A DNA stretch of 44,092 nt, taken from assembly GCA_902793845.1 (NCBI GenBank), contig CADBFE010000003.1, positions 1 through 44,092 of the forward strand, read 5' to 3'. Position 1 is the first letter of the stretch, and each line of letters begins with the position of its first letter. Source of the stretch: an uncultured Lachnospiraceae bacterium. GTDB taxonomy: Bacteria > Bacillota > Clostridia > Lachnospirales > Lachnospiraceae. The notes below the pieces were generated by a model. The model saw nothing but the letters and a program-made list of their open reading frames with translations. It was not told the DNA's origin and did not search any database. This document shows, piece by piece, positions 1,724 to 40,553 of this stretch. Both the position numbers and the translations under genes were made by a program.

Positions 1724-2809
1724 ATGGGAAGAGTTTATAATTTCTCAGCAGGACCTGCGGTATTACCCGAAGAGGTTCTTAAAGAAGCAGCAGAGGAGAT
1801 GATGGATTATAAGGGATCCGGTCAGTCCGTAATGGAGATGAGCCATCGATCGAAAGTATACGATACCATTATCAAGGAAGCTGAAGCTGATCTTAGAGAG
1901 CTTATGAATATTCCTGATAATTATAAGGTACTGTTTTTACAGGGTGGTGCTTCACAGTTCTTTGCAGAGGTTCCTATGAACATGATGAAGAACAAAAAGG
2001 CCGGATATATCATCACAGGCCAGTGGGCAAAGAAGGCATTCCAGGAGGCAAAGATCTACGGTGAGGCTGTAGAGCTTGCATCTTCAGCAGATAAGACATT
2101 CAGCTATATTCCTGACTGCTCTGATCTCCCTATCACAGATGATATGGATTATGTATATATCTGCGAGAACAATACCATTTATGGTACAAAATATAAGAAA
2201 CTCCCTGATACAAAGGGCAAGATCCTCGTATCTGATGTGTCATCATGCTTTTTATCAGAGCCCGTTGATGTGACAAAATACGGTGTTATTTACGGTGGTG
2301 TACAGAAGAATGTAGGACCTGCAGGATGTGTGATCGCTATTATCAGAGAAGACCTCATCACAGATGAGTGTCTCCCCGGAACACCTACCATGCTTAAATG
2401 GAAGACCCAGGCAGACAACGATTCACTTTACAATACGCCTCCCTGCTACACAATCTATATTTGTGGCAAGGTATTCAAGTGGCTCAAGAAAATGGGTGGA
2501 CTTGAAGAGATGAAGAAGCGCAACGAGGAGAAGGCAAAGATCCTTTACGATTTCCTTGATTCTTCAAAGCTCTTTAAGGGTACTGTTGTAAAGGAAGACA
2601 GATCACTCATGAATGTACCTTTTGTAACCGGCGACGAGGAACTTGATGCCAAGTTTGTAAAGGCTGCTACAGAGGCTGGATTTGTAAACCTTAAGGGACA
2701 CAGATCAGTAGGCGGTATGAGAGCATCTATCTACAATGCAATGCCTAAGGAAGGCGTAGAGAAACTCGTTGAGTTCATGAAGAAATTTGAAGCAGAGAAT
2801 GCTAAATAA
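1724..2809 (+). CDS. serC: Phosphoserine aminotransferase
   Basis: The 361-residue product is a class V PLP aminotransferase that converts 3-phosphohydroxypyruvate and glutamate to O-phosphoserine. It opens with the SerC signature VYNFSAGPAVLPEEVL, has the LFLQGGASQFF segment, and carries the PLP Lys in YGGVQKNVGPAG. The C-terminus has the substrate-binding HRSVGGMRASIYNA motif. Length matches the family. The start is set by GGAGGAG eight bases upstream. It is 11 bp from serA, with which it forms the first two steps of serine synthesis. No serB follows. Confidence 0.97.
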   Translation: MGRVYNFSAGPAVLPEEVLKEAAEEMMDYKGSGQSVMEMSHRSKVYDTIIKEAEADLRELMNIPDNYKVLFLQGGASQFFAEVPMNMMKNKKAGYIITGQWAKKAFQEAKIYGEAVELASSADKTFSYIPDCSDLPITDDMDYVYICENNTIYGTKYKKLPDTKGKILVSDVSSCFLSEPVDVTKYGVIYGGVQKNVGPAGCVIAIIREDLITDECLPGTPTMLKWKTQADNDSLYNTPPCYTIYICGKVFKWLKKMGGLEEMKKRNEEKAKILYDFLDSSKLFKGTVVKEDRSLMNVPFVTGDEELDAKFVKAATEAGFVNLKGHRSVGGMRASIYNAMPKEGVEKLVEFMKKFEAENAK

Positions 2810-2820
2810 GGAGTATAAAA

Positions 2821-3984
2821 ATGTTTAAATATAATTGCCTTAATCCAATCGCAAAGGTTGGTCTTGATAAGTTTTCAATCGATTATGCAAAGACAGAGGA
2901 TATGAATGAGGCAGACGGCGTACTTGTCCGTTCTGCAGCAATGCACGACCTTGAGCTCCCGGCATCCCTTAAAGTCATTGCCAGAGCCGGTGCAGGTGTA
3001 AACAATATCCCTCTTGATAAGTGTGCCGAGCAGGGTATCGTGGTATTTAACACACCCGGTGCCAACGCAAATGCCGTTAAGGAACTCGTACTCGCAGGAA
3101 TGCTCCTTGGCAGCCGTGATATCGTAGGCGGTATTGAGTGGGTTAAAGAAAATAAGGTCGATGAAGGCATTGCAAAATCAGCTGAGAAGGCAAAGAAGGC
3201 TTTTGCAGGTACAGAAGTACTCGGCAAGAAACTCGGTATCATCGGTCTCGGTGCCATAGGTGTACTTGTTGCAAATGCAGCCGTAGGACTCGGTATGGAA
3301 GTATACGGATACGATCCCTATCTTTCAGTAAAGAGCGCATGGAGCCTTGATACATCAGTTAAGCATGTGGTAGATGTAAATGATATCTACAAGAACTGTG
3401 ACTATATCACAATCCATGTACCTCTTATGGATGCTACAAAGAATACGATCAACAAGGATGCAGTCCAGATGATGAAGGACGGTGTGATCATCCTTAACTT
3501 TGCAAGAGATTTGCTCTGCGATGAGAAGGCTATCCTCGACGGAATTAAGGCAGGTAAGGTGAGAAAGTATATCTCTGACTTCCCTAATCCTACAACTGCA
3601 GGTCAGGACGGTGTCATCGTAATTCCTCACCTTGGAGCATCTACAGAAGAGGCAGAGGACAACTGTGCAAAGATGGCTGTTGACGAGATGAGAAACTTCC
3701 TTGAGAACGGTAATATCGTCAACTCCGTTAACTATCCTAACTGTGATATGGGTGTATGCTCTACAGCAGGACGAGTTACAATCTGCCATAAGAATACTGC
3801 AAACATGATCACAAAGTTTACAGCTACATTCGGAGACCTTAATGTCAACATCGAAAACATGATGAATAAGTCAAAGGGTGATTATGCGTATACAATGCTT
3901 GATGTTGCAGCACCTGTAACAGATGAGCAGGTTGCCGCTCTTGAGAAGATCGAGGGCGTAATCCGTGTTCGTGTAATCAAATAA
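2821..3984 (+). CDS. serA: D-3-phosphoglycerate dehydrogenase with ACT domain
   Basis: This 387-residue cytosolic enzyme oxidises 3-phosphoglycerate to 3-phosphohydroxypyruvate with NAD+. It has the N-terminal substrate domain (ARAGAGVNNIP at about 57-67), a Rossmann GLGAIG motif at about 142-147, the active-site Arg in NFARDLLCDE, and the catalytic His270 in IPHLGASTEEAEDN. The last 70 residues form an ACT-type regulatory domain, which in relatives can bind serine. The segment that normally carries the catalytic Glu (VFxxEP) reads DFPNPT at 253-258, so that partner is not obvious. A GGAG site precedes the ATG. Co-transcribed with serC. Confidence 0.95.
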   Translation: MFKYNCLNPIAKVGLDKFSIDYAKTEDMNEADGVLVRSAAMHDLELPASLKVIARAGAGVNNIPLDKCAEQGIVVFNTPGANANAVKELVLAGMLLGSRDIVGGIEWVKENKVDEGIAKSAEKAKKAFAGTEVLGKKLGIIGLGAIGVLVANAAVGLGMEVYGYDPYLSVKSAWSLDTSVKHVVDVNDIYKNCDYITIHVPLMDATKNTINKDAVQMMKDGVIILNFARDLLCDEKAILDGIKAGKVRKYISDFPNPTTAGQDGVIVIPHLGASTEEAEDNCAKMAVDEMRNFLENGNIVNSVNYPNCDMGVCSTAGRVTICHKNTANMITKFTATFGDLNVNIENMMNKSKGDYAYTMLDVAAPVTDEQVAALEKIEGVIRVRVIK

Positions 3985-4475: not shown

Positions 4476-5714
4476 ATGGCACAGATATTTCCTTTTAAAG
4501 CAGTCAGACCGTCAAAAGAATATGCGGATATAATACCCGCACTTCCTTATGATGTTTATTCCAGAGCAGAAGCTAAAGCAGAGGTTGCAAAGCATCCCCA
4601 TTCGTTTCTTGCGATAGACAGGCCGGAAACCAATTTTGACGACAGCAATTTTGATATGTACAGTGACGAGGCTTATGAGAAAGCTGCTTCAATGCTTAAG
4701 GCATGGAAAGAAGAGGGCAGCTTTGTAACTGATGAGGAGCCTCACTATTATGTATACGAGCTCACTATGTGTGGCAGGAGCCAGACCGGTATCGTGGGCT
4801 GTGCATCAATTGATGATTACTTAAACGGTGTCATCAAAAAGCACGAAAATACCAGGAGAGACAAGGAAGAGGACAGAGTCCGCCATGTATATACATGTTC
4901 GGCCCAGACAGGTCCTATCTTTTTGGCATACAGAGGCGATGCAAAATTAAAGCTCGCCATCCAGGAGATCAAAAAAGAGGATTCTCTCTACGACGTGACA
5001 GGTGATGACGGCATCAGACACAGAGTGTGGATCGTCACTGATGAAGCTGATACAGAGCTTATCAAAAAGACTTTTGACAATATGGACAGTATCTATATTG
5101 CCGACGGTCATCACAGATGTGCATCTGCTGTCAGGGTTGGACTCATGAAGAGGGAGGAAAATCCCTCATACGACGGAAGTGAAGAGTTTAACAGGTTTAT
5201 GGCTGTGCTTTTCCCTGATGAAGAGCTCTCCATACTTGATTACAACAGAGTTGTTAATGACCTAAACGGTCTTGATCAGATGGTATTTATGAGCGAGATT
5301 GCAAAGCACTTCTCAATCGGAGATCCGTCATACAAGGCAATCAAACCGTCAAAGAAGGGCGAGATATCAATGTACCTTAAGGGACTCTGGTATCCCCTTA
5401 CGATCAAGGATAATGCTACAAGCGATGATCCCGTGGAGGGACTTGATGTGGCTATCCTGCAGAAATATGTACTTGATGAAATCCTTGATATAAAAGATCC
5501 GACTACAGACAAGAGGATCTCTTTTGTAGGTGGTATCAGGGGACTTGCGGAGCTTGAGAAAAATGTGGCTGCAGGAGCCGCGGTTGCATTTGCGATGTAT
5601 CCCACATCGATAGACGAGCTGTTTCGTGTTGCTGATGCGGGATTGCTCATGCCGCCTAAATCCACATGGTTTGAGCCTAAGCTTAAAAGTGGATTTTTCA
5701 TACATGAATTTTAA
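4476..5714 (+). CDS. DUF1015 family protein
   Basis: A 412-residue soluble protein of the DUF1015 (COG4198) family, recognised from the opening AQIFPFKAVRP, the PYDVYSRAEA segment, HENTRRDKEEDR, and the central ADGHHRCASAVR motif at residues 209-220. The biochemical activity of the family is not established to my knowledge. The DGHHR motif recalls the phosphate-binding DGxHR-type box of ParB/sulfiredoxin/serine-kinase-like folds; that is only a resemblance by eye. It lies close to serC-serA, which lack an adjacent serB, so a role near phosphoserine is a reasonable guess. ATG follows GGAGGA by five bases. The next gene begins 17 bp downstream. Confidence 0.88.
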   Translation: MAQIFPFKAVRPSKEYADIIPALPYDVYSRAEAKAEVAKHPHSFLAIDRPETNFDDSNFDMYSDEAYEKAASMLKAWKEEGSFVTDEEPHYYVYELTMCGRSQTGIVGCASIDDYLNGVIKKHENTRRDKEEDRVRHVYTCSAQTGPIFLAYRGDAKLKLAIQEIKKEDSLYDVTGDDGIRHRVWIVTDEADTELIKKTFDNMDSIYIADGHHRCASAVRVGLMKREENPSYDGSEEFNRFMAVLFPDEELSILDYNRVVNDLNGLDQMVFMSEIAKHFSIGDPSYKAIKPSKKGEISMYLKGLWYPLTIKDNATSDDPVEGLDVAILQKYVLDEILDIKDPTTDKRISFVGGIRGLAELEKNVAAGAAVAFAMYPTSIDELFRVADAGLLMPPKSTWFEPKLKSGFFIHEF

Positions 5715-5731: not shown

Positions 5732-8068
5732 GTGAGTAAAAAAATTTACGATCTTATGGACTGGGCTGCTATCGAAGAGATAGTATACGGGGAAGCCATG
5801 CATCCTGAAAGACTTCTCGGAGCCCATAATGTAAACAGAAATACACTTGTACAGTGCTTTTTCCCGGGGGCAAAATCGGTATCGCTGATCACAGATGACG
5901 GCGAAAACATAAAGATGGAAAAGCATGATGATGCAGGATTTTTTGCAACTCTTTTGCCCGGCAAGGACAGGAAAGATTATAAATATCATGTATCCGGCAA
6001 CGATAAAAACGAAAGACCAAGGGATTACTATGAGGTTTATACAGGAGAAACACTTTTAAAGGAAAGTGAGCTTGACCTCATTATGTCAGGCAGTGACTTT
6101 GAAGTATATAAAAAACTTGGATCCCACGTGATGACAATAGGCGGCAGAAAGGGAGTACGCTTTTGTGTATGGGCGCCTAATGCCAGAAGAGTCAGTGTAG
6201 TCGGAGATTTCAACGAGTGGAACGGTCTGACTCATCAGATGATAAAGGATGAGAATACCGGTATCTACTCAATATTTATCCCGGGACTGAAAGCGGGAGA
6301 AAAGTATAAATATGAGATGCTGATATCAGGCACGGAGAAAATCTTAAAGCCTGATCCGTACGCTTTCCAGACAGACGGCAGCGATGAGAATGCATCGATT
6401 GTCAGCGACAGATTTTCATTTAAATGGAATGATGCCGATTATATGAAAAATCGCAAAAAGGCCGATTTTTGTTCATCACCTTTAAATCTGTATGAGATTA
6501 ACCCGGAGACAGTAAAGGACGGTGCAGGCCTTAAGAATGCTTCAAAGAGCATAATAACTCATATGAAAAACTATGGTTATACCCACGCAGACCTTATGCC
6601 GGTGCTCGAATATGCGGGAACAAATCCTTATGTACCTTCATCGGTATATGCCATTAGCCATAAGGCAGGGGGCAGCGAGGAACTGGCATTTTTTGTAAAT
6701 GCTCTCCATGAAGAGGGACTCGGTGTCATCCTCCAGTATCCTGTTGGTTCATTTGATCAGGGCAAGGGTGGTATCAGTTTTTTTGACGGTACATGCCTCT
6801 ATGAGCATCAGGATTTCAGAAAGGGAGTTGATCCCAGAACCGGCGCCAAGATATACAGATACGGCGATCCTGTTGTAGATGAGTACATTTTATCCAATGC
6901 AAAATATCTGAAAGAAACATTTCATATAGACGGATTCAAGTTTACCGATGTGAGCAGTATGCTATACCTTGATTATTACAGAGGTGATAATGAGTGGATG
7001 CCCAATATCTACGGAGGTAATGAAAATCTTGAGTCTATCAATTTCATAAAGAGGATAAACAGATCACTTCATGAAGATGACGGATTTATAACAATCGCCG
7101 AGGAAAAGAGCGGATGGCCGTTTATCTCAGATATTAAGGGGATGTCTGAAAAAGACAAGAGTGACTGTCTGCTCTTTGATTTTGTCATGAATAACGGCTT
7201 TAATGAGGACGTTCTGTCATATATGATTAACGACCCCATTGAGAGATACAGACATCATGATGAGCTGACAATGGCATCCGTATATCAGTACAGAGAAAAT
7301 TATATCAGCTATATTTCCCATGAAAATGTCGGGGATAACATTAACTCACTGCTTAATATGATGCCGGGCTCGGAAGAGGAAAAGAGAGCAAACTTAAGGG
7401 CAATGTATGGATATATACTGACCATGCCGGGTAAAAAAGAAATCTTTATGGGCCAGGATCAGATATTTGATACAGACGGCGAGGAGAAAACGGAAAATAA
7501 AGAGTTTTCTGCTTATATGAAAGATCTGCTTAAGCTTGTCGGTACGAGAAAAGCTCTCTCTGTATATGATTTTGATTCCAAAGGATTTGACTGGATCAAT
7601 AATTTCTCAGCCAATGAGAATGTAATCGTTTATACAAGATCCGGCGTAAAGCCGGAGGATACCCTGACGATCATCGTTAACTTTGCAAACGTTACGAGAA
7701 ACAGATACCATATCGGCGTACCTGCTTACGGAAAATACAGAGAAGTATTTTCTTCTGATGACAAGAAATACGGCGGAGAAGGAAGAGGCAATGACCGTGT
7801 ACTTCCTGCCAGAAAAAAAGAGTGCGATGCAAGAGATGACTCAGTCTCCCTGACTCTGCCTCCTCTCTCGATAACCATTCTCTCATATACACCTTTTACC
7901 AAAGCAGAGCTTGAGACCATGGAGAAACAACGCCAGGCCAGAGAGAAAGCTCTGGCTGAGAGAAATAAAAAGCGTGAGCTCTTTATAGCTGAGAAAAAGA
8001 AGATCAGAGAGGAACTCTACGCAGAGCTTGAAAAGCGTATGGCTGAGGCCGAGAAAAAATACAGATAA
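5732..8068 (+). CDS. GlgB-like (GH13/CBM48) protein, probable pseudoenzyme with helical tail
   Basis: The 778-residue product has the architecture of glycogen branching enzymes: an N-terminal module, a CBM48 domain (RFCVWAPNARRVSVVGDFNEW, about 145-240), a GH13 barrel, and a C-terminal beta domain. The scaffold is unmistakable (SSMLYLDYYRGDNEWMPN, YGGNENLESINF), but catalytic blocks are altered. Region I DWVPxHF reads QYPVGSF (335-341). Region II GxRxDAVASM reads GFKFTDVSSM, putting Thr405 where the nucleophile Asp should be. Region III keeps AEE (456-458). Region IV SHDE reads SHEN (529-532). An inactive glycan-binding or regulatory role is inferred. The last 60 residues form a highly charged Glu/Lys/Arg helix, probably coiled coil, absent from ordinary GlgB. 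Start is GTG, eight bases after GGAGGG. Confidence 0.85.
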   Translation: MSKKIYDLMDWAAIEEIVYGEAMHPERLLGAHNVNRNTLVQCFFPGAKSVSLITDDGENIKMEKHDDAGFFATLLPGKDRKDYKYHVSGNDKNERPRDYYEVYTGETLLKESELDLIMSGSDFEVYKKLGSHVMTIGGRKGVRFCVWAPNARRVSVVGDFNEWNGLTHQMIKDENTGIYSIFIPGLKAGEKYKYEMLISGTEKILKPDPYAFQTDGSDENASIVSDRFSFKWNDADYMKNRKKADFCSSPLNLYEINPETVKDGAGLKNASKSIITHMKNYGYTHADLMPVLEYAGTNPYVPSSVYAISHKAGGSEELAFFVNALHEEGLGVILQYPVGSFDQGKGGISFFDGTCLYEHQDFRKGVDPRTGAKIYRYGDPVVDEYILSNAKYLKETFHIDGFKFTDVSSMLYLDYYRGDNEWMPNIYGGNENLESINFIKRINRSLHEDDGFITIAEEKSGWPFISDIKGMSEKDKSDCLLFDFVMNNGFNEDVLSYMINDPIERYRHHDELTMASVYQYRENYISYISHENVGDNINSLLNMMPGSEEEKRANLRAMYGYILTMPGKKEIFMGQDQIFDTDGEEKTENKEFSAYMKDLLKLVGTRKALSVYDFDSKGFDWINNFSANENVIVYTRSGVKPEDTLTIIVNFANVTRNRYHIGVPAYGKYREVFSSDDKKYGGEGRGNDRVLPARKKECDARDDSVSLTLPPLSITILSYTPFTKAELETMEKQRQAREKALAERNKKRELFIAEKKKIREELYAELEKRMAEAEKKYR

Positions 8069-8082: not shown

Positions 8083-9057
8083 ATGTTTAATAATATATCA
8101 GCAGGCTTCGTGAGATTTTTCTCAGAAGCTGTCAGTGAAAATTCCATAAGTGAAGACAGTGTCAGCGAAAATGTCGTACAGCAGGTTCAGACTGTGATCG
8201 CGGAAGAAATCGGTGTGGACAATATCGACGAAAAAGTAAGTGTCATTCAGAATTATTTAAAGGAATGGCCGGATAAGATACTGCGCTTTGGTATCAGGGC
8301 AGGTCTTGCGATACTTATTTTCATTATCGGCTGCAAGCTGATATCGGTTATCAGGAAACTGCTCAAAAAGTCAATGACGAAACACAATTTTGATGCGGGA
8401 GTCATATCTTTCCTGGACTCCTTTGTTAAGGTTGTGCTTTTTATACTGCTGTTCTGGGGACTGGCTTCATACTTTGGTATCCAGACAACAGGTCTCGTGA
8501 CCGTATTTGGTTCTGCCGGTGTTGCTATAGCCCTTGCATTCCAGGGCTCCCTTTCAAACCTTATCGGAGGCTTGCTGATACTTATATTAAAACCCTTCAA
8601 AGTAGGGGATTATATTATCGAGCATACAAAGGATAAAGAGGGAACCGTTATTGATATCAAACTGTTCCACACAAGACTACGTACTACGGATGACAAGATA
8701 ATACTCCTCCCTAACGGTGCACTTGCAAACAGTTCCCTTACAAACCTTAATATGACTCCGATAAGGAGAGTATGTCTTAAATGCGGCATTGCTTATGATG
8801 CGGATATTAAGCTGGCAAAAGAGACAATCGGCAAAGTAATAACCGATTGCGAATATACACTTAAGGACAGTAATGTAGATATCTATGTGGATGAACTTGC
8901 AGACAGTGCAGTGGTGATAGGCTTCAGGTTTTATGTAAAGAATGAGGATTACTGGAAAGCCAGATGGGAGACCCTCGAAAACGTAAAAATCTCACTTGAT
9001 AAAGCGGGAGTCGAGATTCCGTTTAACCAGATGGACGTCCATATTAAGAACGATTAG
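8083..9057 (+). CDS. MscS-family small-conductance mechanosensitive channel
   Basis: A 324-residue membrane protein. Two hydrophobic helices (about 70-92 and 107-132) precede the pore-lining TM3, which has the Gly/Ala-packed pattern GSAGVAIALAFQGSLSNLIGG, followed by LKPFKVGDYI and the cytoplasmic beta domain (TDDKIILLPNGALANSSLTNL). The family opens under membrane tension to release solutes during osmotic downshock. An unusual Ser/Glu-rich, soluble N-terminal segment of about 65 residues (SENSISEDSVSENVV) precedes TM1. It starts 14 bp after the GlgB-like gene, with only a weak ribosome site, suggesting co-transcription and coupling. Confidence 0.93.
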   Translation: MFNNISAGFVRFFSEAVSENSISEDSVSENVVQQVQTVIAEEIGVDNIDEKVSVIQNYLKEWPDKILRFGIRAGLAILIFIIGCKLISVIRKLLKKSMTKHNFDAGVISFLDSFVKVVLFILLFWGLASYFGIQTTGLVTVFGSAGVAIALAFQGSLSNLIGGLLILILKPFKVGDYIIEHTKDKEGTVIDIKLFHTRLRTTDDKIILLPNGALANSSLTNLNMTPIRRVCLKCGIAYDADIKLAKETIGKVITDCEYTLKDSNVDIYVDELADSAVVIGFRFYVKNEDYWKARWETLENVKISLDKAGVEIPFNQMDVHIKND

Positions 9058-9120: not shown

Positions 9121-9193
9121 GCTGAAATAGCTCAGTCGGTAGAGCACTTCACTCGTAATGAAGGGGTCGTGGGTTCGAGTCCCATTTTCAGCT
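9121..9193 (+). tRNA. tRNA-Thr, anticodon CGT
   Basis: A 73-nt cloverleaf. Acceptor arms are GCTGAAA (9121-9127) and TTTCAGC (9186-9192) with a U discriminator. The anticodon stem CTTCA/TGAAG encloses the 7-nt loop CTCGTAA, giving anticodon CGT, which reads ACG. The T loop is GGTTCGAGTCC. CCA is not encoded. A run of seven T follows directly (9193-9199) and may end the transcript. It is a lone tRNA with its own promoter between mscS and alaS. Confidence 0.96.
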
Positions 9194-29217: not shown

Positions 29218-31317
29218 ATGTACTGTAAAAACTGTGGACAGATAGTGCCAAAAGGAATAAAGGAATGTCCTACTTGCGGAGAGCCGGTTAAGAGTAAAGG
29301 AGTCATAGTGGCGGTGCTGATAGCACTTGCGGCTGTGGCTTTTGCTGTTTTTGTAACCGTATTTTTCTTCCTGAAAAAAAGTGAGTTTGATGATGAGCTG
29401 GCCAAGGCAAAAAAGGGTAACAGCACGTCCACATCAGAGTCAAAGAAAGATGACAAGGACAAAGACAAGGATAAAGACAAAGAAAAAGATGATGACGATG
29501 ATGAGGACGATAAGCTGGGTACACCGGCTGAGAGTACAACCATCATGGTCTATATGATAGGAAGCAATCTTGAGAGTGACTACGGTGCAGCTACCGATGA
29601 CCTGGAAGAGATGCTCGATGCCGAATATGAGAATGTAAATATCGTCATTCAGACAGGCGGAGCCAAATACTGGTATATGGATGGTATTTCCAATAAAAAA
29701 GTACAGCGTTTTCATATAGATGACGGAGAACTTACAGAACTTGATAACCTTGGCAAGATGAGCATGAGTACACCGGATGCTCTGACAGATTTCGTTACAT
29801 TTGCTGCAGAGGAATATCCTGCGGAGGAGTATGTGCTGGTACTCTGGGATCATGGCGGCGGTATACCTGTAGGTTTTGGATATGATGAAGTTTTCCCCGA
29901 TGATTATCTTGTTGATGTTGAGATCGGTCAGGCACTTGATGATGCAGGAGTGCATTTTGGCGCCATAGTATTTGATGCATGTAATATGTGTACTCTTGAG
30001 GTAGCACTGTCAATCATGGATAATGCAGACTATATGGTTGCAGCCGAGAGCTATGTAAACGGTATAGGTATCTATTATACAGACTGGATAAATGAGACAA
30101 GTTCCGACCTTGAATACCTCGTACAGGATTACTGTGAGACAATAGTATCAGACTATATGGATTCCCTGGATGAAGAGGGGCTGGTAGGATCCATGTCAGT
30201 CATCAAGCTGTCCAAGATTGATGAAGTATATGATGCGTATGTTGATTATATTGCTTCAGTTGCAGATGCCGTGGATAACGGAGAATACGAGGACTATTAT
30301 GCGGCCAGAGGCAACTGCGGATATTATGAAGGCACTGATTCTGTAGATCTGTGTACTCTCTGCACCCAGTTTGATACCGATTATGCGACGCCGTTATTTA
30401 ACTCAGTTGTAAATGCCGTTGTTTATACAGAAAGTGATATTAATTACGGCCATGGTATTACAGCATATTCTCCTTATGATTACTTTGATTATTATGATGA
30501 GGGAAGGGAATCGCTGGTAACTCTCGGCTATGATGAGGAGATACTTGATTTTTATGATAAGTTTGCCAGCAGACTGTTTGACTATTTTGCACCTGATTAC
30601 ATAGGCGTCTATACAGGAGACTGGTATGTGGATTCGGGAGAATCATCTGCTGACTATTATGTAGGAGCAGGTAAGAAAAATGAAGAACTCGAAGTCTTTG
30701 ACCTGGGTGGATATTTCGGACTCACCCTTGAGGAAGATGAGTGGGATATGATCTACTCAATCGCTGTATGCACATATATTGAAATAGATGATGAAAGCGT
30801 ATGGTGTCTCGGCTCATGTTATCACAGTGAGTTTGATGACGACGGCAATCTGATGATCGTAGATCCTGACGAATGGGTATTTTTAAATGATGAATTTTGC
30901 TACTACGATTGTGTAGATTACTATTATGACGAGGAGACGGGAGACTGGGCTGAGTATGGATATGTATACTGTACTGTAAACGGTTCGGATTCTGTAATGC
31001 TCGTATATTTTGATCAGGATTATACAGACGGAATGATCCTTGGATATTATGACTATGATGCCGTAAATGATGAGATCACATCTGATCAGATGTATTCATT
31101 TAATGATGATGATGAGATCGACCTGATCTATTATGTATATTACACAGATGAAGATACGGGATATATATTTGATAATAATGCTCCGTTTACATACGCTGAT
31201 GCAGTAATCACAAGAGATGATATTGAACTGAGTAATGACAGTACATATCTTTACTATATTCTCGAGGATTATTACGGAAACACGTATGAGACCGAGCTTG
31301 TATATCTCTATATTTAA
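29218..31317 (+). CDS. Clostripain-family (C11) cysteine peptidase, membrane-anchored with zinc ribbon
   Basis: A 699-residue protein with an unusual order: a cytosolic zinc ribbon at the N-terminus (CKNCG...CPTCG, residues 2-22), a membrane helix (about 31-55), an extracellular Lys/Asp linker (about 77-100), then a C11 caspase-like domain. The domain starts TTIMVYMIGSNLES; catalytic His212 is in WDHGGG and Cys255 in FDACNMC. C11 peptidases cleave after Arg or Lys, often after self-activation. The remaining 300 residues are extremely Asp/Tyr-rich (SPYDYFDYYDEG) and probably beta, possibly calcium-binding or surface-exposed. The GH5 gene follows after 26 bp. Confidence 0.88.
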   Translation: MYCKNCGQIVPKGIKECPTCGEPVKSKGVIVAVLIALAAVAFAVFVTVFFFLKKSEFDDELAKAKKGNSTSTSESKKDDKDKDKDKDKEKDDDDDEDDKLGTPAESTTIMVYMIGSNLESDYGAATDDLEEMLDAEYENVNIVIQTGGAKYWYMDGISNKKVQRFHIDDGELTELDNLGKMSMSTPDALTDFVTFAAEEYPAEEYVLVLWDHGGGIPVGFGYDEVFPDDYLVDVEIGQALDDAGVHFGAIVFDACNMCTLEVALSIMDNADYMVAAESYVNGIGIYYTDWINETSSDLEYLVQDYCETIVSDYMDSLDEEGLVGSMSVIKLSKIDEVYDAYVDYIASVADAVDNGEYEDYYAARGNCGYYEGTDSVDLCTLCTQFDTDYATPLFNSVVNAVVYTESDINYGHGITAYSPYDYFDYYDEGRESLVTLGYDEEILDFYDKFASRLFDYFAPDYIGVYTGDWYVDSGESSADYYVGAGKKNEELEVFDLGGYFGLTLEEDEWDMIYSIAVCTYIEIDDESVWCLGSCYHSEFDDDGNLMIVDPDEWVFLNDEFCYYDCVDYYYDEETGDWAEYGYVYCTVNGSDSVMLVYFDQDYTDGMILGYYDYDAVNDEITSDQMYSFNDDDEIDLIYYVYYTDEDTGYIFDNNAPFTYADAVITRDDIELSNDSTYLYYILEDYYGNTYETELVYLYI

Positions 31318-31343: not shown

Positions 31344-33146
31344 ATGAAAAATTACCGAGCAGTTTTATCCATAACAATTATTTTTGTACTTTTATCCGTA
31401 TTTGCTTTCGGATGCGGACCGGTTAATGAACTTACGGTTTCATCTGATGGAGTGCAGACACAGGGGGTGACAGATAATACTTTGACACGTTTTTCGGATA
31501 TGGACTTTACTGAGATGGATGCACTGGAGTTTTCAAAATATCTTGGAAACGGAATAAACCTTGGTAATACCATGGAAGCAACCGGACCGGATCTTGCAAC
31601 AGATTTAAGTGTATCTGCATATGAGACATACTGGGGACAGCCGGTGACAACACCTGAAATGATTCAGGGTATGAAAGATTGCGGATTTGATACAATCCGT
31701 ATACCTGTGGCATGGACCAATATGATGGATTATAAAAACGGTGATTATACCATCGACAGTGCATATCTTGACAGGGTAGAGGAGATAGTAAACTATGCCC
31801 TTGATGCAGATATGTTTGTCATAATCAATGATCACTGGGATAAAGGCTGGTGGGCAATGTTTGGCTCATCGGATGAAACAACCGTTCAGGCAGCATTTGA
31901 TCTGTATGAGTCAATGTGGAAACAGGTGGCCGAGCGATTCAAGGATTACTCCGATATGGTCATCTTTGAATCGGCAAATGAAGAGCTGGGCAATTCCCTT
32001 AATAATAATGCGCTTTGGAGCGATTCCGGATCACTGACTGAGAATCAGCAGTATGAGATGACCAATACAATAAATCAGAATTTTGTCGATATCATCAGGA
32101 ATTCCGGCGGCAATAATGATGACAGGTTTTTGCTTATAGCCGGATATAATACGGATTTTGACAAGACACTCGATGACAGATTTGAGATGCCTTCTGATAC
32201 GGTTGATGGAAAACTCCTTGTTTCAGTTCACTATTACACTCCGTGGAATTACTGCGGCGCGGAAACCCAGGCTTCATGGGGCATTAAATCAGAATATGAG
32301 GAGATGAATAATCAGTTTGCAAAGCTCTCGAAATTTACTGATCAGGGATACGGTGTGATCATCGGTGAGTACTCGGCTATCCCTTTATGGAATAATGGAA
32401 ATCCGATTCCAAAGGAAAATACCGTTGAATTTATGACAAACCTCCTTGATAACTGTGACATTTATAATTATGTCCCTGTATTGTGGTCAACAAATGATTT
32501 ATATAACAAATCAACTTGTACCATGATAAATGATGAAATTAAAGAACTCTTTGCCGGCAGATCGTATGCGTCAGAAGTTCAAAAGGCCGATTCATACATA
32601 GAAGAAGCAAAGGAAAGGATGGAGGAAGCTCTGTCAACGGCACCGGACCACAGAGAGGGTACAGTATTTTATGACGAAGGAACACCTGTTGCATGGATCA
32701 TGTGGAACGGAGGCGCAGGTACATACTCTGTCGGGGATGTGTTTAATCCCGATGACAATACGATGGGTATCACTGCCACGAATGCAATAGTTGAGGGAGA
32801 GGGTGAATATACCGTAAGTCTTGATTTTGCCGGAGGTAATGACGGACTCACATTTGCAGCCCTGGCTCTTGCCGACGGAGAGCTCCTGTACCCGGGATGT
32901 ATCTTAAATATTAAAGAGATTACTTATGACGGAGAGCCTGTAGATCTAATAGCAAAGCCGTATACTTCATCTGATGACGGGCTGTGTACGAGAGTAAATC
33001 TCTATAATGAATGGGTAGGCAGCGTCCCGGATGATGCCAGAAGCATGGGGCACGATTTGACAGGTACTTCACCCGTAATAATAGATAAAACAAAGATTAA
33101 CGGCATTAAGAATATCACCATTACATTTGAACTGATAATTCCGTAG
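31344..33146 (+). CDS. GH5 endoglucanase-type lipoprotein
   Basis: A 600-residue exported glycoside hydrolase. The signal ends in the lipobox AFGC (Cys24), so it is anchored to the outer face of the membrane. The GH5 barrel runs from about 50 to 400: GINLGNTMEA, FDTIRIPVAW, ESANEELGN with acid/base Glu213, VSVHYYTPWNY, and IIGEYSA with nucleophile Glu342. GH5 enzymes of this kind cleave beta-1,4-glucans, xyloglucan or mannan; the substrate cannot be told from sequence alone. Residues about 430-600 form a beta-sandwich module of unknown type, perhaps carbohydrate-binding. Co-transcribed with the C11 peptidase. Confidence 0.92.
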   Translation: MKNYRAVLSITIIFVLLSVFAFGCGPVNELTVSSDGVQTQGVTDNTLTRFSDMDFTEMDALEFSKYLGNGINLGNTMEATGPDLATDLSVSAYETYWGQPVTTPEMIQGMKDCGFDTIRIPVAWTNMMDYKNGDYTIDSAYLDRVEEIVNYALDADMFVIINDHWDKGWWAMFGSSDETTVQAAFDLYESMWKQVAERFKDYSDMVIFESANEELGNSLNNNALWSDSGSLTENQQYEMTNTINQNFVDIIRNSGGNNDDRFLLIAGYNTDFDKTLDDRFEMPSDTVDGKLLVSVHYYTPWNYCGAETQASWGIKSEYEEMNNQFAKLSKFTDQGYGVIIGEYSAIPLWNNGNPIPKENTVEFMTNLLDNCDIYNYVPVLWSTNDLYNKSTCTMINDEIKELFAGRSYASEVQKADSYIEEAKERMEEALSTAPDHREGTVFYDEGTPVAWIMWNGGAGTYSVGDVFNPDDNTMGITATNAIVEGEGEYTVSLDFAGGNDGLTFAALALADGELLYPGCILNIKEITYDGEPVDLIAKPYTSSDDGLCTRVNLYNEWVGSVPDDARSMGHDLTGTSPVIIDKTKINGIKNITITFELIIP

Positions 33147-34438: not shown

Positions 34439-34714
34439 ATGGTAGTAGTAATTAATATACTTTTGGTTTTCCTCCTTGTATGTGCTGTGTGCGTCAGCTT
34501 TACAAAGAATCTGCTTAATACAGTTCTTGTATTTATGTCATTTTCTCTAGTGATGTCGATAGTCTGGATACTCCTTGAGTCCCCCGACCTGGCCATCACA
34601 GAAGCAGCCGTAGGCGCAGGTGTGACGAGTATACTTTTCTTTATCACTCTCAAAAAGATTGAGGCAATAAACAAGAATAATGGGGAGAGTAATAATGAGC
34701 AGAATAAAGAGTGA
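34439..34714 (+). CDS. MbhD-like (DUF4040) antiporter subunit
   Basis: A 91-residue, three-helix protein. The motif SLVMSIVWILLESPDLAITEAAVGAG is the DUF4040/MbhD signature, including the conserved acidic residues thought to lie on the proton or sodium path. In classical Mrp systems this piece is part of the long MrpA C-terminus; here it is a free subunit, as in Mbh hydrogenases. Its end overlaps the next gene by 20 bp. Confidence 0.9.
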   Translation: MVVVINILLVFLLVCAVCVSFTKNLLNTVLVFMSFSLVMSIVWILLESPDLAITEAAVGAGVTSILFFITLKKIEAINKNNGESNNEQNKE

Positions 34715-35651
34715 GGAAGAATTCAGGAAAACAGGTGCATACAGGTTCCTCAGATGGTACAGAGGTACAAAAGATCCCTATATTGATGAAGTCGAGATGC
34801 AGGAAGGAGAGATCCCCGAGCAGAAACTGACTAATGAGGAGATCGAGAGAGACAAGAAGCTTGCCAAGGAGCAGGCATATGAGTACCAGGGTAAATGGTA
34901 CAAGGCATATAATAAGCTTTATTTTCTTGTTTCCATAGTTTTTTGTATAACACTTGCTATTGTCATGCTCTTTATGACAGGCAGACTTCCTAAGATAGGT
35001 ACACCGGACAGACCAAGTAATAATGAGGTTGCTCAGGTTTATATAGAAAACGGTATAGAAGATACAGGCGCAGTAAATATCGTAGCCGGAATGATCCTTA
35101 ATTACAGAGCGTTTGATACCTTTGGTGAGACATGCGTGCTCTTTATAGCTACCACATGTGTAATGATGCTCCTCATGAAAAAGGAGGAGGACATAAGGTC
35201 GGGCAAGATTGCAAATGACAGAATCTATGAGCCCAAAAACGACCAGATACTTCAGAAAGTAGCATTTGTTCTCGTACCGGTGATTTTCATATTCGGTATA
35301 TATGTAATACTTAACGGACATATTTCTCCCGGCGGAGGCTTTTCGGGAGGAGCCCTTATCGGAGCAGGTATGATTCTATATGTATCCGCATTCGGATTTG
35401 ATAAGATGCAGAAATTCTTTAATGAAGAGACGTATAAGGTGGTAAAGGTTGCAGCTCTTTGTACATACTGCGCTGTGATTACATATTACATTTATATGGG
35501 GGCAAATGATCTTGATAATCATATACCGCTTGGCACTCCGGGTATGATCTTTTCAGCAGGCATCATACTCTGGCTCAATATATTTGTAGGTATCGAAGTA
35601 GCATGTACCATGTATGCATTCTATGCACTGTTCAGAAGAAACGGTCTGTAA
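34695..35651 (+). CDS. mrpB: Fused MbhE + MrpB antiporter subunit
   Basis: A 318-residue protein. Residues 1-75 are hydrophilic and unusual. Residues about 76-165 hold a helix and the MbhE-type segment NIVAGMILNYRAFDTFGETCVLF. After another charged stretch, residues about 195-318 are MrpB/MbhF: FGIYVILNGHISPGGGFSGGALIGAGMILY, followed by helices ending in TMYAFYALFRR. In Mbh systems E and F are separate, and in Mrp the E part sits in MrpA. Start at ATG 34695 because GGGGAGAG lies eight bases upstream; that ribosome site is inside the upstream in-frame ATG at 34680. Confidence 0.88.
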   Translation: MSRIKSEEEFRKTGAYRFLRWYRGTKDPYIDEVEMQEGEIPEQKLTNEEIERDKKLAKEQAYEYQGKWYKAYNKLYFLVSIVFCITLAIVMLFMTGRLPKIGTPDRPSNNEVAQVYIENGIEDTGAVNIVAGMILNYRAFDTFGETCVLFIATTCVMMLLMKKEEDIRSGKIANDRIYEPKNDQILQKVAFVLVPVIFIFGIYVILNGHISPGGGFSGGALIGAGMILYVSAFGFDKMQKFFNEETYKVVKVAALCTYCAVITYYIYMGANDLDNHIPLGTPGMIFSAGIILWLNIFVGIEVACTMYAFYALFRRNGL

Positions 35652-35666
35652 AAGGCGGAGGTAAAT

Positions 35667-36044
35667 ATGTTCGGAAATCTTATCACAAATTTTGGAGAAG
35701 CCGTTGCCGTGCTTTTATTCGTAATCGGATTTAAAGACCTCCTGCTTCAGAAAAATCTTATAAAGAAAATTGTCGGCCTTAACTTTATGGACTCCGGCAT
35801 ATATCTTTTCCTCGCGGAAAAGGGATATATTGCAGGTAGGGTAGCGCCTATCGTAACTGATGGTGTGACTGAGGTGACAAAGTATATCAATCCGGTACCT
35901 TCCGGCCTAGTGCTTACGGGTATCGTTGTTTCAGTGTCTTCTACAGCCCTGATGCTGGCACTTACGATAAGGCTTTATGAGAGGTATCACACTCTTAATA
36001 TGGATGAGATATCTACCATCATCAAGAAGGGAGAGATTGAATAA
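35667..36044 (+). CDS. mrpC: Antiporter subunit C (MrpC/MbhG, NuoK-like)
   Basis: A 125-residue protein with three membrane helices, homologous to NuoK. LFVIGFKDLLLQKNLIKKIVGLNFMDSGIYLF and the LVLTGIVVSVSSTALMLAL helix are typical of the family, including the second-helix polar residues. A 40-residue insertion-like stretch with VTEVTKYINPVPSGL links helix 2 and 3 as in other MrpC. GGCGGAGG precedes the ATG. One-base overlap with the next gene. Confidence 0.93.
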   Translation: MFGNLITNFGEAVAVLLFVIGFKDLLLQKNLIKKIVGLNFMDSGIYLFLAEKGYIAGRVAPIVTDGVTEVTKYINPVPSGLVLTGIVVSVSSTALMLALTIRLYERYHTLNMDEISTIIKKGEIE

Positions 36045-37537
36045 TGGAAATTATGCGCAATTTCCCCTGTATCTCAATAATACTTTGTATGTGCAGTGCC
36101 ATTGTATCATCGGCTCTGCCCGGAAAGTGGGCCAGAAGACTTAATGTCACAATTGTACTTGCTGTTATTACTTTATCCGGTGGTACCCTTGTATACTCTC
36201 TGGCAAAGGGTTATGAGACAGTATATAAAATGGGACGTTTCCCTGCACCCTGGGGAAATGAGATAAGATTTGGCGTGCTGGAAGCAATTATGGCACTGTT
36301 TTTCAGTGGGATACTGCTTTTATCAGTACTTGGCGGCAGCAAGAAGCTTAAAGAAGATATAGATAACTTTAAAGAGAATCTGTATTTTGTACTGCTTGAT
36401 CTGCTCCTCAGCTCTTTGCTTGCACTTATTTATACAAACGACCTTTTTACAGCTTATGTATTTGTGGAGATATGCACTATAGCAGCCTGCGGTCTCATTA
36501 TGGCCAGCGAGAGAGGACGGGCTATCGAGGCGGCGACCAGATATATGATCTATGCCCAGATAGGTTCGGGACTTTTGCTTTTTGGTCTCTGTATTCTCTA
36601 TGACATCACAGGCCATCTCCTCATGAGCAATATAAAGACCCAGGTTATTATATTGGCATCATCCGGTCAGTATCATATACCCCTTGTTATTTCCATCGTA
36701 TTTATCGGTACGGGTCTTGCGATCAAGTCGGCCCTGTTTCCTTTCCATGCATGGCTTCCCGATTCATACGGTTATTCACCTGTACCCAGTGCAGCCATAT
36801 TATCAAGCCTTGTATCAAAAGGATATATATTCCTTTTGCTTAAGATATTTTACAGAGTATTCGGTCTTAACATAATACAGGAGAGTCATCTGTTTAACAT
36901 ACTCCTTATCTTTGGTCTTGCGGGTATGATATTTGGTTCAGTATCGGCCATACTTGAGCAGGATATCAGGCGTATGATCGCATTCTCGTCAGTGGCCCAG
37001 ATAGGATATATTTATATGGGATTTGGAATGGGTATCAGATCCGGAATGGTAGCGGCTGTATTTCATATTATTTCCCATGCAGCATCAAAGTCACTTCTGT
37101 TTATATCATCAGCCGGACTGACTGATGCATCAGGTAAAAACAAGACATTTAAGGACCTTACCGGTGCTGCGTACAGAAACAAGATAGCGGGAGCGGCATT
37201 TACAACAGGTGCATTAAGCATGGTAGGTGTACCGCTTTTCTCAGGATTTATCAGCAAGCTTTTATTTGCCAAGGCTGCATTTGAGACTAATGCGATGACT
37301 ATGGTTGCGACTCTTGTATGCCTTGCCATATCGACTATTCTTAACGCGGTTTATTTCCTTAAGACTGTTGCCAGAATATATACACCGGCAACAACGGAAT
37401 ATGAGACCATCAGATTTAAAGACAATATTCCTTTCGGAGTAGCATGTATTTTGTTTATCATACTTAACCTGATCCTCGGACTTGCATCCGATCCCCTCGT
37501 TGAGTTTATAAACAGAGGACTTATGATGTTCTCATAG
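36044..37537 (+). CDS. mrpD: Antiporter subunit D-like 1 (NuoL/M/N family)
   Basis: A 497-residue protein with about 14 membrane helices, the first of four large antiporter-type subunits. Ion-path residues are present: Glu in AYVFVEICT, Lys in LAIKSALFPFHAWLPDSYGYSPVPSAA, a second Lys in SLVSKGYIF, and His/Lys in IISHAASKSLLF. By position after MrpC it corresponds to MrpD/MbhH. Complete. Its stop overlaps an upstream GTG of the next frame, which I do not use as a start. Confidence 0.92.
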   Translation: MEIMRNFPCISIILCMCSAIVSSALPGKWARRLNVTIVLAVITLSGGTLVYSLAKGYETVYKMGRFPAPWGNEIRFGVLEAIMALFFSGILLLSVLGGSKKLKEDIDNFKENLYFVLLDLLLSSLLALIYTNDLFTAYVFVEICTIAACGLIMASERGRAIEAATRYMIYAQIGSGLLLFGLCILYDITGHLLMSNIKTQVIILASSGQYHIPLVISIVFIGTGLAIKSALFPFHAWLPDSYGYSPVPSAAILSSLVSKGYIFLLLKIFYRVFGLNIIQESHLFNILLIFGLAGMIFGSVSAILEQDIRRMIAFSSVAQIGYIYMGFGMGIRSGMVAAVFHIISHAASKSLLFISSAGLTDASGKNKTFKDLTGAAYRNKIAGAAFTTGALSMVGVPLFSGFISKLLFAKAAFETNAMTMVATLVCLAISTILNAVYFLKTVARIYTPATTEYETIRFKDNIPFGVACILFIILNLILGLASDPLVEFINRGLMMFS

Positions 37538-37554
37538 TGCTTAGAGGTATTACA

Positions 37555-39048
37555 ATGATAAATTTTAACATGATTTTAATAGCATCATTTCTGTTTCCGC
37601 TTCTTTCGGGCGTACTCCTTTTTGCCATAAAAGAGCAGGCCGACCGAAAGGTTACATTTGCATATACAGGATTGTCACTTGTGATCACCGGTGTATTAAA
37701 TATGATCCTGCTCTTTGCAGACAGTGCAGAGGTTAAGCTGATAACACTTATGAACGGCATAGATATTGTTTTCAGGCTTGATACACTTGGCAAATATTTT
37801 ATGGGTATAGTCAGCCTCGTATGGATACTGGCAGGGTTTTTCTCATATACATACATGAAGCATGAGAAAAATGAGAAGAGATATTTTGCATATTACTTAA
37901 TTGTATTTGGTGTGCTTAACGGACTCGGTGCAGCCGGCAATCTGATCACGATGTATGCATTCTATGAATTCATGACATTGTCTTCATTTCCGCTTGTCCT
38001 TCATAATCAGAAAAAAGAGTCTGTCATGGCAGCCCTTAAATATCTGTTTTATTCATTCTTTGGAGCGTATATGGCACTCTTTGGACTGTTCTTTATGTGC
38101 AGATACTGCAGGACCCTTGATTTTATACCCGGAGGCGTGATAGATCAGGTCGCCATGTCAGGTCATGAGACACTGGTACTTGTATGTATATGCCTTATGA
38201 TAATGGGCTTTTCTGTTAAGGCAGGTATGTTTCCCCTTCATGCATGGCTGCCCGCGGCTCATCCCGTGGCACCTGCTCCGGCATCAGCAGCTTTATCCGG
38301 CATCATAGTAAAGGGAGGAGTCCTTGCGATACTCCGTGTCATTTTCTATATTGCAGGACCGGAGATTATAAGGGGCACGTTTATTCAATATCTTCTCCTT
38401 ACATTATCCCTTGTCACTGTTTTTATGGGATCGATGCTGGCATACAGAGAGAAAGTATTAAAAAAGAGACTGGCTTATTCCACAGTCAGTCAGCTCAGTT
38501 ATATACTGTTTGGCATCGCCCTTTTAAATCCTGCGGGACTGACGGGTTCACTGCTTCATATGGCGGCTCATGCATTTATTAAGTGTGCACTGTTCCTCTC
38601 AGCAGGAGCCATTATATTTAATACGGGATGTACCAGGGTAGATGAGCTTCGAGGTATAGGAAAGAAAATGCCGGGAGTGATATGGGGATATACCATCGTA
38701 TCCCTTGGCCTTATCGGTATACCTCCAACAGGAGGATTTATCAGTAAGTGGTATCTGGCATCCGGTGCTTTATCAAGCGGGATAAAGGGATTCTCATATG
38801 CAGGTCCCATTGTGCTGCTTATAAGTGCACTGCTCACTGCGGGATATCTGCTTCCTGTTACCATAAACGGATTTTTCCCGGGAGATGATTATGATTATGA
38901 AAATCATAAGACGATAAAGACTTCATTTTACATGATTATGCCAATCATAGTACTTGCCATTTTGTCTGTGCTTATCGGTATGTTTCCAAACGGTCTTACG
39001 GAATTTATCGGAAGCATTACAGGCGAGATTTTTAATACAGGATTTTAG
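37555..39048 (+). CDS. Antiporter subunit D-like 2 (NuoL/M/N family)
   Basis: A 497-residue, about 14-helix protein of the proton-translocating family. It has the Glu in AFYEFMTLSSFPLVLH, Lys in FSVKAGMFPLHAWLPAAHPVAPAPASAALSG, Lys in GIIVKGGVL and His/Lys in MAAHAFIKCALFLSAG. ATG 37555 is preferred because TTAGAGG lies eight bases upstream. It is more similar by eye to the next subunit than to the preceding one (shared KHEKNEKRYF/KHEEHERVFF block and YDYE/FDYE near the C-terminus), so the pair probably arose by duplication. Confidence 0.92.
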   Translation: MINFNMILIASFLFPLLSGVLLFAIKEQADRKVTFAYTGLSLVITGVLNMILLFADSAEVKLITLMNGIDIVFRLDTLGKYFMGIVSLVWILAGFFSYTYMKHEKNEKRYFAYYLIVFGVLNGLGAAGNLITMYAFYEFMTLSSFPLVLHNQKKESVMAALKYLFYSFFGAYMALFGLFFMCRYCRTLDFIPGGVIDQVAMSGHETLVLVCICLMIMGFSVKAGMFPLHAWLPAAHPVAPAPASAALSGIIVKGGVLAILRVIFYIAGPEIIRGTFIQYLLLTLSLVTVFMGSMLAYREKVLKKRLAYSTVSQLSYILFGIALLNPAGLTGSLLHMAAHAFIKCALFLSAGAIIFNTGCTRVDELRGIGKKMPGVIWGYTIVSLGLIGIPPTGGFISKWYLASGALSSGIKGFSYAGPIVLLISALLTAGYLLPVTINGFFPGDDYDYENHKTIKTSFYMIMPIIVLAILSVLIGMFPNGLTEFIGSITGEIFNTGF

Positions 39049-39062
39049 AAAGGAGGCAGAAG

Positions 39063-40538
39063 ATGATCATTTACTTATTACCGATAACAGTTCTGTTTCC
39101 AATACTTGCGTCTGTGCTGATACCTGTAGTGCCGATTAAGAGCAGGAGAGGGATTACATGGTTTATAGAAGCCATTGTGATCGTAAACAGTATTCTCGTC
39201 TGGTATTTATTATGGGGCAGTCCTGACCAGTCTTTTACACTCTTTAAATTTACGGGTAATCTGTCTGTTACATTTCATATAGACGGTATGGCTACGGTAT
39301 TTGCGGGACTGGTATCATTTCTGTGGCCCCTTGCTACATTTTATTCATTTGAATATATGAAACATGAAGAGCATGAGAGAGTATTCTTTATGTTTTATAC
39401 CATGACATACGGTGTAACCTTGGGCATCGCAATGAGTTCAAATATATTTTCGATGTATTTCTTTTATGAACTCCTGACCATCGTTACGACGCCTCTTGTA
39501 ATCCATACTCTTAAAAAAGAGGCTGTGGATGCTGCGAGAAAGTATATTTATTATTCAATGGGTGGAGCGGCATTTGCTTTTATCGGTATGGTATTTATCA
39601 TCCTTTACGGTACTACAGCTGACTTTACATACGGCGGAGTACTTGCAGGAGGAACCTTTGCCAGAAATATTAATGTCCTATATCTGATTTATGTATTTTC
39701 ATTTATGGGATTTGGCGTAAAAGCAGCCATATGGCCGGTATGCGGATGGCTGCCAAAAGCCGGTGTGGCACCTACTCCCGTAACGGCGCTTTTACATGCT
39801 GTTGCAGTCGTCAAATCGGGTGCTTTTGCCGTAATGCGCCTTACTTATTATTGTTTTGGAGCAGACCTTTTACGGGGCAGCTGGGCCCAGTATACCGTTA
39901 TGGCTTTTTCGATTTTTACCATCGTATACGGATGCTCAATGGCTGTAAAGGAGAGACACTTAAAGAGACGTCTTGCTTACTCAACAGTGAGCAACTTAAG
40001 TTATATTCTGTTTGGAGTCACCATAATGACACCCCTTGGCCTTGTGGGAGCTCTGGCTCATCTTGTGGCTCATGCGTTTATGAAGATTACTTCATTTTTC
40101 TGCGCCGGTGCCATTATGTACAAGACAGGCAGAAATTACGTATATGAACTTGACGGCTTTGGCCGAAAGATGCCAAAGACTTTTGCAATATTTACCGTGT
40201 CGGCATTTGCACTCATGGGAGTCCCGGGCCTTGCAGGATTTATATCAAAATACAATCTGGCAATAGCAGCTGTCTACAGCGATAATGTGCTGGCTTATAT
40301 AGGTGTGGGAGCCCTTCTTTGCTCGGCCATACTGACAGCCATTTATATGTTTACTATCATTATCAGGGCATTTTTCCCGAGAGACGACTTTGATTATGAG
40401 ACCATAAAAGATGTGGAGGATCCCAATTATATAATGATCCTGCCACTGACGATTTTTGTGATCGTGATATTTATACTCGGACTTCATCCCCAGCCTCTTC
40501 TCGATATGTTTGTGAAGATAGCTGTCGGAAATCTGTAG
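39063..40538 (+). CDS. Antiporter subunit D-like 3 (NuoL/M/N family), variant motif
   Basis: A 491-residue, about 14-helix protein. It keeps the Glu in YFFYELLTIVTTPLVIH and the Lys residues in FGVKAAIWPVCGWLPKAG and VAVVKSGAF, and the His in LVAHAFMKITSFF. The usual PLHxWLP motif is changed to PVCGWLP, so the conserved His near the transport Lys is replaced by Cys. AAAGGAGG lies upstream of ATG. Likely duplicate of the previous gene. Confidence 0.92.
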   Translation: MIIYLLPITVLFPILASVLIPVVPIKSRRGITWFIEAIVIVNSILVWYLLWGSPDQSFTLFKFTGNLSVTFHIDGMATVFAGLVSFLWPLATFYSFEYMKHEEHERVFFMFYTMTYGVTLGIAMSSNIFSMYFFYELLTIVTTPLVIHTLKKEAVDAARKYIYYSMGGAAFAFIGMVFIILYGTTADFTYGGVLAGGTFARNINVLYLIYVFSFMGFGVKAAIWPVCGWLPKAGVAPTPVTALLHAVAVVKSGAFAVMRLTYYCFGADLLRGSWAQYTVMAFSIFTIVYGCSMAVKERHLKRRLAYSTVSNLSYILFGVTIMTPLGLVGALAHLVAHAFMKITSFFCAGAIMYKTGRNYVYELDGFGRKMPKTFAIFTVSAFALMGVPGLAGFISKYNLAIAAVYSDNVLAYIGVGALLCSAILTAIYMFTIIIRAFFPRDDFDYETIKDVEDPNYIMILPLTIFVIVIFILGLHPQPLLDMFVKIAVGNL

Positions 40539-40553
40539 GAAAGGAGAGAAGAT

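Follow-up and report, generated by a model that had tools for sequence, protein, structure and literature searches.

Can a protein that has kept the whole body of a glycogen branching enzyme still branch glycogen when most of its active site has been replaced, and, if it cannot, why is its gene kept? This question is raised by a gene in a stretch of 44,092 nucleotides from an uncultured Lachnospiraceae bacterium (contig CADBFE010000003.1 of assembly GCA_902793845.1), which is called the window hereafter. The gene occupies positions 5732..8068 on the forward strand, starts with GTG, has no internal stop, and encodes a protein of 778 amino acids derived from the branching enzyme GlgB. This protein, referred to here as pseudo-GlgB, has the Type 1 layout of an N1 domain, CBM48, barrel, C-terminal domain (C-domain) and C-terminal helix. 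Judged from its sequence, it almost certainly lacks branching activity. A GlgB that is kept throughout a genus with its active site erased and its overall framework under selection suggests a non-enzymatic job in the handling of stored sugar, and related bacteria appear to have lost the GlgB active site separately.

The loss is read from the four conserved regions of the GH13 family, whose residues are numbered here after GlgB of E. coli K-12 (L096 in the alignment). In region I (ILQYPVGSFD, 6728..6757, forward strand like all features of the gene), D335 is replaced by Q and H340 by S. In region II (HIDGFKFTDVSSMLY, 6923..6967), R403 has become K, the nucleophile D405 has become T, and A406 has become D. 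The acid/base residue E458 of region III (ITIAEEKSGW, 7088..7117) is kept as E457 of the window protein, and H525 of region IV (ISYISHENVGDNI, 7304..7342) is kept as H530, next to E531 in place of D526 and N532 in place of E527. Thus, five of the seven conserved active-site residues are replaced, E458 and H525 remain, and the catalytic triad D405/E458/D526 reads T, E, E. Along with the nucleophile, the transition-state stabiliser and many residues of the substrate groove are gone. An initial annotation, made from the window alone, had read these four regions correctly; its Lys403 and Thr405 agree with the alignment to the E. coli enzyme, and the scaffold segments SSMLYLDYY and YGGNENLE that it described as conserved are indeed so. 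The same loss extends over the genus. Sixty relatives were surveyed (34 of the same genus, one of the same family and 25 of the same order), and the window protein together with those of 32 relatives gives 33 genus sequences. Among them, D335 is found once, E458 in 14 and H525 in 17. None has an intact triad or even two of its three acids, and all three are gone in 19. D405, R403, H340 and D526 are each present in 0/33, an absence for which neither chance nor an error of sequencing accounts. Position 405 is occupied by L in 13 sequences, C in six, T and S in four each, N and Q in two each, and M and K in one each. The replacements also vary at 403 and 526, as is expected after loss of catalysis.

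Position 406 behaves differently from its neighbours. It is D in 28 and E in five of the 33 genus sequences, in contrast to A in 168/169 intact or near-intact rows of the alignment (161 distinct after overlap was removed). It is also changed in 24 of the 25 other dead copies treated below (D in eight, S in seven, N in four, E and G in two each, M in one; the remaining copy has A), where dead means without at least one of D405, E458 and D526. Over all dead sequences, A406 is replaced in 57/58, mostly by D or E. The protein might then be an enzyme still, with Asp406 or another residue as nucleophile, and the retention of E458 in the window protein fits such an enzyme as well. The initial annotation had itself raised an active family with Asp406 as nucleophile as the case against its reading. 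This is very improbable: an acidic residue is indeed fixed at 406, but E458 is kept in only 14/33 and D526, R403 and H340 in none, 405 and 526 vary freely, no member retains two of the three acids, and no new conserved set of replacements was seen. Asp406 as a replacement nucleophile was rejected on the ground that neither the acid/base nor the stabiliser shows conservation alongside it.

Around the erased site, the rest of the enzyme is in place. GlgB_N, the N1 domain, spans residues 11-98 (5762..6025; Pfam PF22019, E 2.6e-22), and CBM48 residues 128-211 (6113..6364; PF02922, E 2.3e-28). The alpha-amylase C-terminal all-beta domain lies at residues 621-718 (7592..7885; PF02806), and a charged helix at residues 724-777 (7901..8062) ends the protein. 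All three Pfam domains are present in 33/33 genus members. The Pfam model of the alpha-amylase catalytic domain has no match in the window protein and is matched in 28/33 members. Type 1 branching enzymes are defined by an N1 plus N2 architecture (PMC6339891), and GlgB_N ahead of CBM48 in the window protein agrees with it. The NCBIfam branching-enzyme model TIGR01515 scores 512.8, above its cut-off of 463.95, and the other GlgB equivalogs of NCBIfam stay below theirs (for example 559.6 against 741). An AlphaFold model made from 81 sequences has a mean pLDDT of 88.2 and a pTM of 0.87, and on this model we are confident that the protein would adopt a complete Type 1 GlgB fold with CBM48, a (beta/alpha)8 barrel and the C-terminal all-beta domain. 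The solved structures closest to it, in sequence as well as in fold, belong to branching enzymes. In Foldseek, entries of the Cyanothece branching enzyme are best by E-value (TM about 0.75/0.77, rmsd about 15.5), and the superposition on M. tuberculosis GlgB (3k1d) is tighter (TM 0.84/0.91, rmsd 3.2, 31% identity over 730 columns). The initial annotation had announced a charged helix of 60 residues at the C-terminus; a single helix is indeed predicted at 724-777, but the tail measures 56 residues. Pseudo-GlgB therefore shares the full domain order, the fold and a TIGR01515 score above cut-off with GH13_9 Type 1 enzymes such as those of E. coli and M. tuberculosis, and differs from them in the five replaced active-site residues, four of which are absent from 33/33.

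A duplicate that decays under relaxed selection could also lose its active site, and the gene does evolve faster than the short canonical GlgB of the same genus (about 650 amino acids, without N1). Across 12 species pairs, dN/dS (omega) of the pseudoenzyme spans 0.030-0.089 and that of short GlgB, calculated for these very pairs, 0.013-0.047, with the pseudoenzyme higher in 12/12; the pairs share species and several have dS above 1, so that these values are approximate. Even so, such ratios for the whole protein, together with values of at most 0.10 per segment in the five pairs with computable dS, speak against decay, which was rejected on dN/dS. The long form is found in 32 of the 34 genus relatives, among them Lachnospiraceae bacterium AB2028 (L104, G034; KK211275.1); the two misses, G016 and G033, are assemblies 81% and 67% complete. 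No long-form match in the genus has an internal stop, and N1, CBM48 and the C-domain are never missing. Decay is thus hardly credible (about as improbable as surviving catalysis), and pseudo-GlgB is under strong purifying selection in the genus. The losses are also unevenly placed. The genus keeps 108 and loses 58 of the 259 positions whose conservation among 68 intact orthologues reaches 95% or more. Counted over columns with a window residue, N1 keeps 16/20 and loses one, CBM48 keeps 25/42 and loses five, the C-domain keeps 6/19 and loses none, and the barrel keeps 61/175 and loses 50, that is, 50 of 56 losses. The view of the initial annotation, a preserved fold with a lost nucleophile and no decay of the frame, is thereby borne out by genus-wide loss, purifying selection and a confidently predicted GlgB fold.

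Was the active site lost only in this genus? Two samples of Lachnospiraceae bear on this point. The first, a biased set, consists of named loci, the best 80 of 565 that match a profile of the genus; five are genus members and 75 are others. At least one catalytic acid is missing from 6/75 (L106, L127, L130, L145, L170 and L173), and L106 is the dead copy of a deposited strain, Lachnotalea glycerini DSM 28816. In a further locus, L155, the changes are confined to H340 and R403. The second sample holds the best long-form match from 105 of 198 genomes of other genera, likewise taken from the top of a capped ranking by profile score. Here, 17 of the first 100 and two of five further copies are dead, which makes 19/105, and the other 86 are intact. 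Eight sequences are common to both samples, none of them dead, and none of 15 fetched second GlgB copies in the family sample is dead. Each of the 19 genomes with a dead copy in this sample has a second GlgB in which all seven residues are intact; this second copy is split over two contigs in G194 and is itself of the long form in G066, G149, G158 and G245. Likewise, 6/6 named dead loci are accompanied by a second copy 59-64% identical to short GlgB, and 4/4 of those fetched have all seven residues. One GlgB with all seven residues (L356, G126:C3) lies inside an open frame of 1238 amino acids and is possibly a fusion with another GH13 protein.

How often the loss occurred depends on the tree. 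In a tree of 122 rows, the genus forms a clade with support 100 nested among long forms (a quick search with long-branch warnings). A FastTree run unites 28 dead rows, of which 16 belong to the genus and 12 do not, in a single clade (support 95). Under the LG+C20 mixture model, with the catalytic columns removed and fewer rows, the dead rows are scattered with 11 state changes, and the genus groups with the intact L100, L103, L109, L116 and L164 and four single dead rows; the order of branching in this tree is uncertain, since it comes from a quick search with 22/51 forks open. Because the dead rows scatter under LG+C20, one ancient dead clade across genera was rejected as long-branch attraction. 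The counts of state changes are 4 and 5 with 122 rows, 5 and 8 with 220 rows and 11 with 54 rows, and such counts alone cannot separate loss from regain. From these trees, we conclude that the active site was probably lost several times independently, in a number that is uncertain.

The genus itself has other GlgB genes. Short GlgB is present in 33 of the 34 genus relatives (as a fragment in G008 and running into a contig end in G033), and the one miss, G009, is 72% complete. The canonical glgB that the initial annotation proposed to look for is thus found in nearly all relatives, but in the window genome its own copy is interrupted. A third GlgB-like paralogue of about 630 amino acids, ~30% identical, is also common in the genus (L088-L094, from G028, G013, G034, G027, G002, G018 and G015), and 7/7 fetched copies have all seven residues. 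In the intact comparators as a whole (short GlgB, third paralogue and order-level relatives), the seven residues are kept wherever the region is readable; regions I and II are unreadable in L073 of G008. The window genome further carries glgA on contig C46, and glgC and glgD adjacent on C15, both above cut-offs.

What, then, could a GlgB without catalysis do? A precedent is known in plants. The isoamylase-like protein ISA2 has a CBM48 and an extra N-terminal beta-sandwich, has lost catalytic residues beside an active paralogue, and, joined to ISA1 in a complex, influences the structure of glucan (PMC12510319). By analogy, we favour the reading that pseudo-GlgB binds glycogen or serves as a scaffold together with a partner, to which we give a probability of roughly 0.45. 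The initial annotation had also proposed a role in binding or regulation, perhaps of glycogen or of a true GlgB, which is putative. On our reading, a Type 1 GlgB would have given up catalysis and become a subunit that binds glucan. The protein would hold alpha-glucan through surface sites on CBM48 and the C-domain, its C-terminal helix would oligomerise or dock on an active glycogen enzyme, either GlgA or an active GlgB, and it would thereby place or tune such enzymes on the growing particle, as the dead ISA2 does with ISA1. Twelve surface glucan sites are listed for E. coli GlgB (PMC10254366). The tryptophan of site VI, W628 (W621 of the window protein), is kept in 33/33 genus members and 25/25 other dead copies, and that of site IV, W159 (W163 of the window protein), in 28/33 and 24/25, respectively. 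Charged tails of at least 56 residues are present in 33/33 genus members, and the length and composition of the tail vary between lineages. The motif LKxELxxK[IVF]xxAE occurs in 32/33 genus members (shuffled mean 0.11), and, among copies that have a tail, in 16/65 of the intact type (0.05) and 3/5 of the other dead ones (0.01); its pattern was widened after inspection, and these counts serve as a lead only. The sole miss in the genus is evidently the window protein, whose helix ends with a one-letter variant.

The same features would also suit a stand-alone tether, which binds glycogen but no enzyme and sets the size or placement of particles through its charged tail. N1, CBM48 and the C-domain tryptophan are kept, and a tether could persist in the window genome in spite of its interrupted short glgB. 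Glycogen binding is putative for it as well, with the donor-groove residues and site I lost, and we regard a tether as unlikely.

Several observations speak against glycogen binding or scaffolding with a partner. W586, the tryptophan of site I, is found in 0/33 genus members (16/25 other dead copies), and W298, Q301, W481 and H530 on the donor side are changed in most members, so that glucan binding would at best be altered. Several E. coli surface sites lack conservation already among the intact copies from Lachnospiraceae and are thus uninformative, and structure alone may explain the retention of W159 and W628. A long tail exists in 68/75 loci outside the genus too, and hence is not special to the dead form. 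A second GlgB accompanies the dead form in 24/24 genomes (including that of the partly altered L155) and the intact form in 38/43 (the 38 read from a match list); with a Fisher p of 0.15, a link between active-site loss and owning a second GlgB was rejected as not significant. In the window genome, the short glgB (G000:C88, L095, 5861-7799) has a broken frame, with some 27 codons missing where the nucleophile would lie. The sequence contains no N there, and the assembly consists of 146 contigs; the break may be an assembly fault. If it is real, the window strain has no partner GlgB. Finally, the neighbours of the gene are DUF1015, serine synthesis and MscS genes, with no glg genes.

Comparison with known systems bears on what is new here. 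GH13 pseudoenzymes and inactive GlgB domains are already known. Like ISA2, pseudo-GlgB is a GH13 relative that carries CBM48 and an additional N-terminal domain, and it has lost catalytic residues and retained the fold under selection. A canonical paralogue, presumably active, is found in 33/34 genus relatives and in 19/19 other dead cases, but the window genome's own copy is broken. ISA2 belongs to the debranching line (GH13_11) and its heteromers have been shown, whereas pseudo-GlgB is a bacterial relative of branching enzymes with recurrent loss and a proposed partner. In the glycogen pathway of bacteria, GlgD is a regulatory subunit of GlgC and hence a regulatory paralogue, and several glgB copies are reported from species such as Blautia obeum (PMC10395257). 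Pseudo-GlgB would resemble GlgD as a regulatory paralogue in the same pathway, and glgD is present in the window genome. GlgD differs in that it acts on the synthesis of ADP-glucose and does not belong to GH13. In Criblamydiaceae and Waddliaceae, a GlgA-GlgB fusion has an inactive branching domain in lineages with a defective GlgC-GlgA pathway (PMC11046441). This is again a bacterial GlgB domain described as inactive, but in a gene fusion; pseudo-GlgB is free-standing and conserved, and its genome has glgA and glgC. A search of the non-subscription literature showed, among the papers listed, none that describes a GlgB pseudoenzyme both conserved and recurrent.

A wider scenario is tentative, though possible. 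The long Type 1 GlgB of Lachnospiraceae, often flanked by DUF1015 and mscS, may already have had a second, non-catalytic job such as scaffolding, so that its active site was free to vanish wherever another active GlgB covered catalysis. This would have happened in many lineages, with A406 nearly always replaced, and would have produced a recurrent ISA2-like class that is misnamed branching enzyme. Why plants select non-catalytic subunits that shape their storage glucan is stated as not understood (PMC12510319), and a recurrent bacterial counterpart of ISA2, present also in the deposited strain L. glycerini DSM 28816, would open this question to simple genetics. For annotation, a glgB match, even one above the TIGR01515 cut-off, is no proof of branching activity, as the best long-form copy is dead in 19/105 genera sampled. 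An automatic pipeline could name pseudo-GlgB a branching enzyme because it passes this cut-off.

The locus may point to another role. In the window, the order is serC-serA-DUF1015-pseudo-GlgB-mscS, followed by a tRNA gene and alaS. The genes serC and serA (1724..3984) and DUF1015 (4476..5714) lie upstream on the forward strand, and the gene for a MscS-type mechanosensitive channel (8083..9057, forward strand) lies downstream; DUF1015 and mscS are separated from the pseudo-GlgB gene by 17 and 14 nt, and no glg gene was found among the 16 other window proteins scanned. Pseudo-GlgB may thus have left glycogen metabolism to serve this operon, as a sensor of a glucose polymer or metabolite or as a structural partner of MscS or DUF1015, for example, and would in this way couple turgor or serine synthesis to the stores of carbon. 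DUF1015 is found at most 400 nt upstream on the same strand in 31/32 genus loci (the exception, L010, begins at a contig end), in 38/69 other not-dead loci (including the partly altered L155) and in 4/6 other dead loci, and mscS at most 700 nt downstream in 25/32, 53/69 and 3/6, respectively; many of these loci are cut by contig ends. The order therefore also surrounds many intact orthologues, which makes the pseudo-GlgB gene the positional orthologue of a Type 1 GlgB kept intact by most sampled Lachnospiraceae. It follows that the linkage predates active-site loss and is independent of it. In the 19 dead cases of the family sample, DUF1015 is at most 400 nt upstream on the same strand in ten and within 0.9 kb in one more (G214), but elsewhere or not found in the assembly in eight. 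With N1 and CBM48 kept in 33/33 in addition, a role confined to the operon is rather doubtful.

Some further features of the window may be noted. Genes serC and serA are also upstream in many related loci, and serC, serA and DUF1015 are all found in 42 of the 75 loci outside the genus (L097-L176). Pfam assigns no function to DUF1015, which may have a part in serine metabolism; no paper linking DUF1015 and serine was found in the literature searched. A scan that gave 12 promoters (shuffled mean 13.6) and 6 terminators (shuffled mean 3.3) was not used. The tRNA gene between mscS and alaS (9121-9193) is the only Rfam match. Farther downstream, a GH5 cellulase-family protein (31344-33146) is encoded next to a clostripain-family (C11) protein (29218-31317), and genes with MnhB/MbhE and proton-antiporter domains, similar to Mrp or complex I, lie at 34680-42698.

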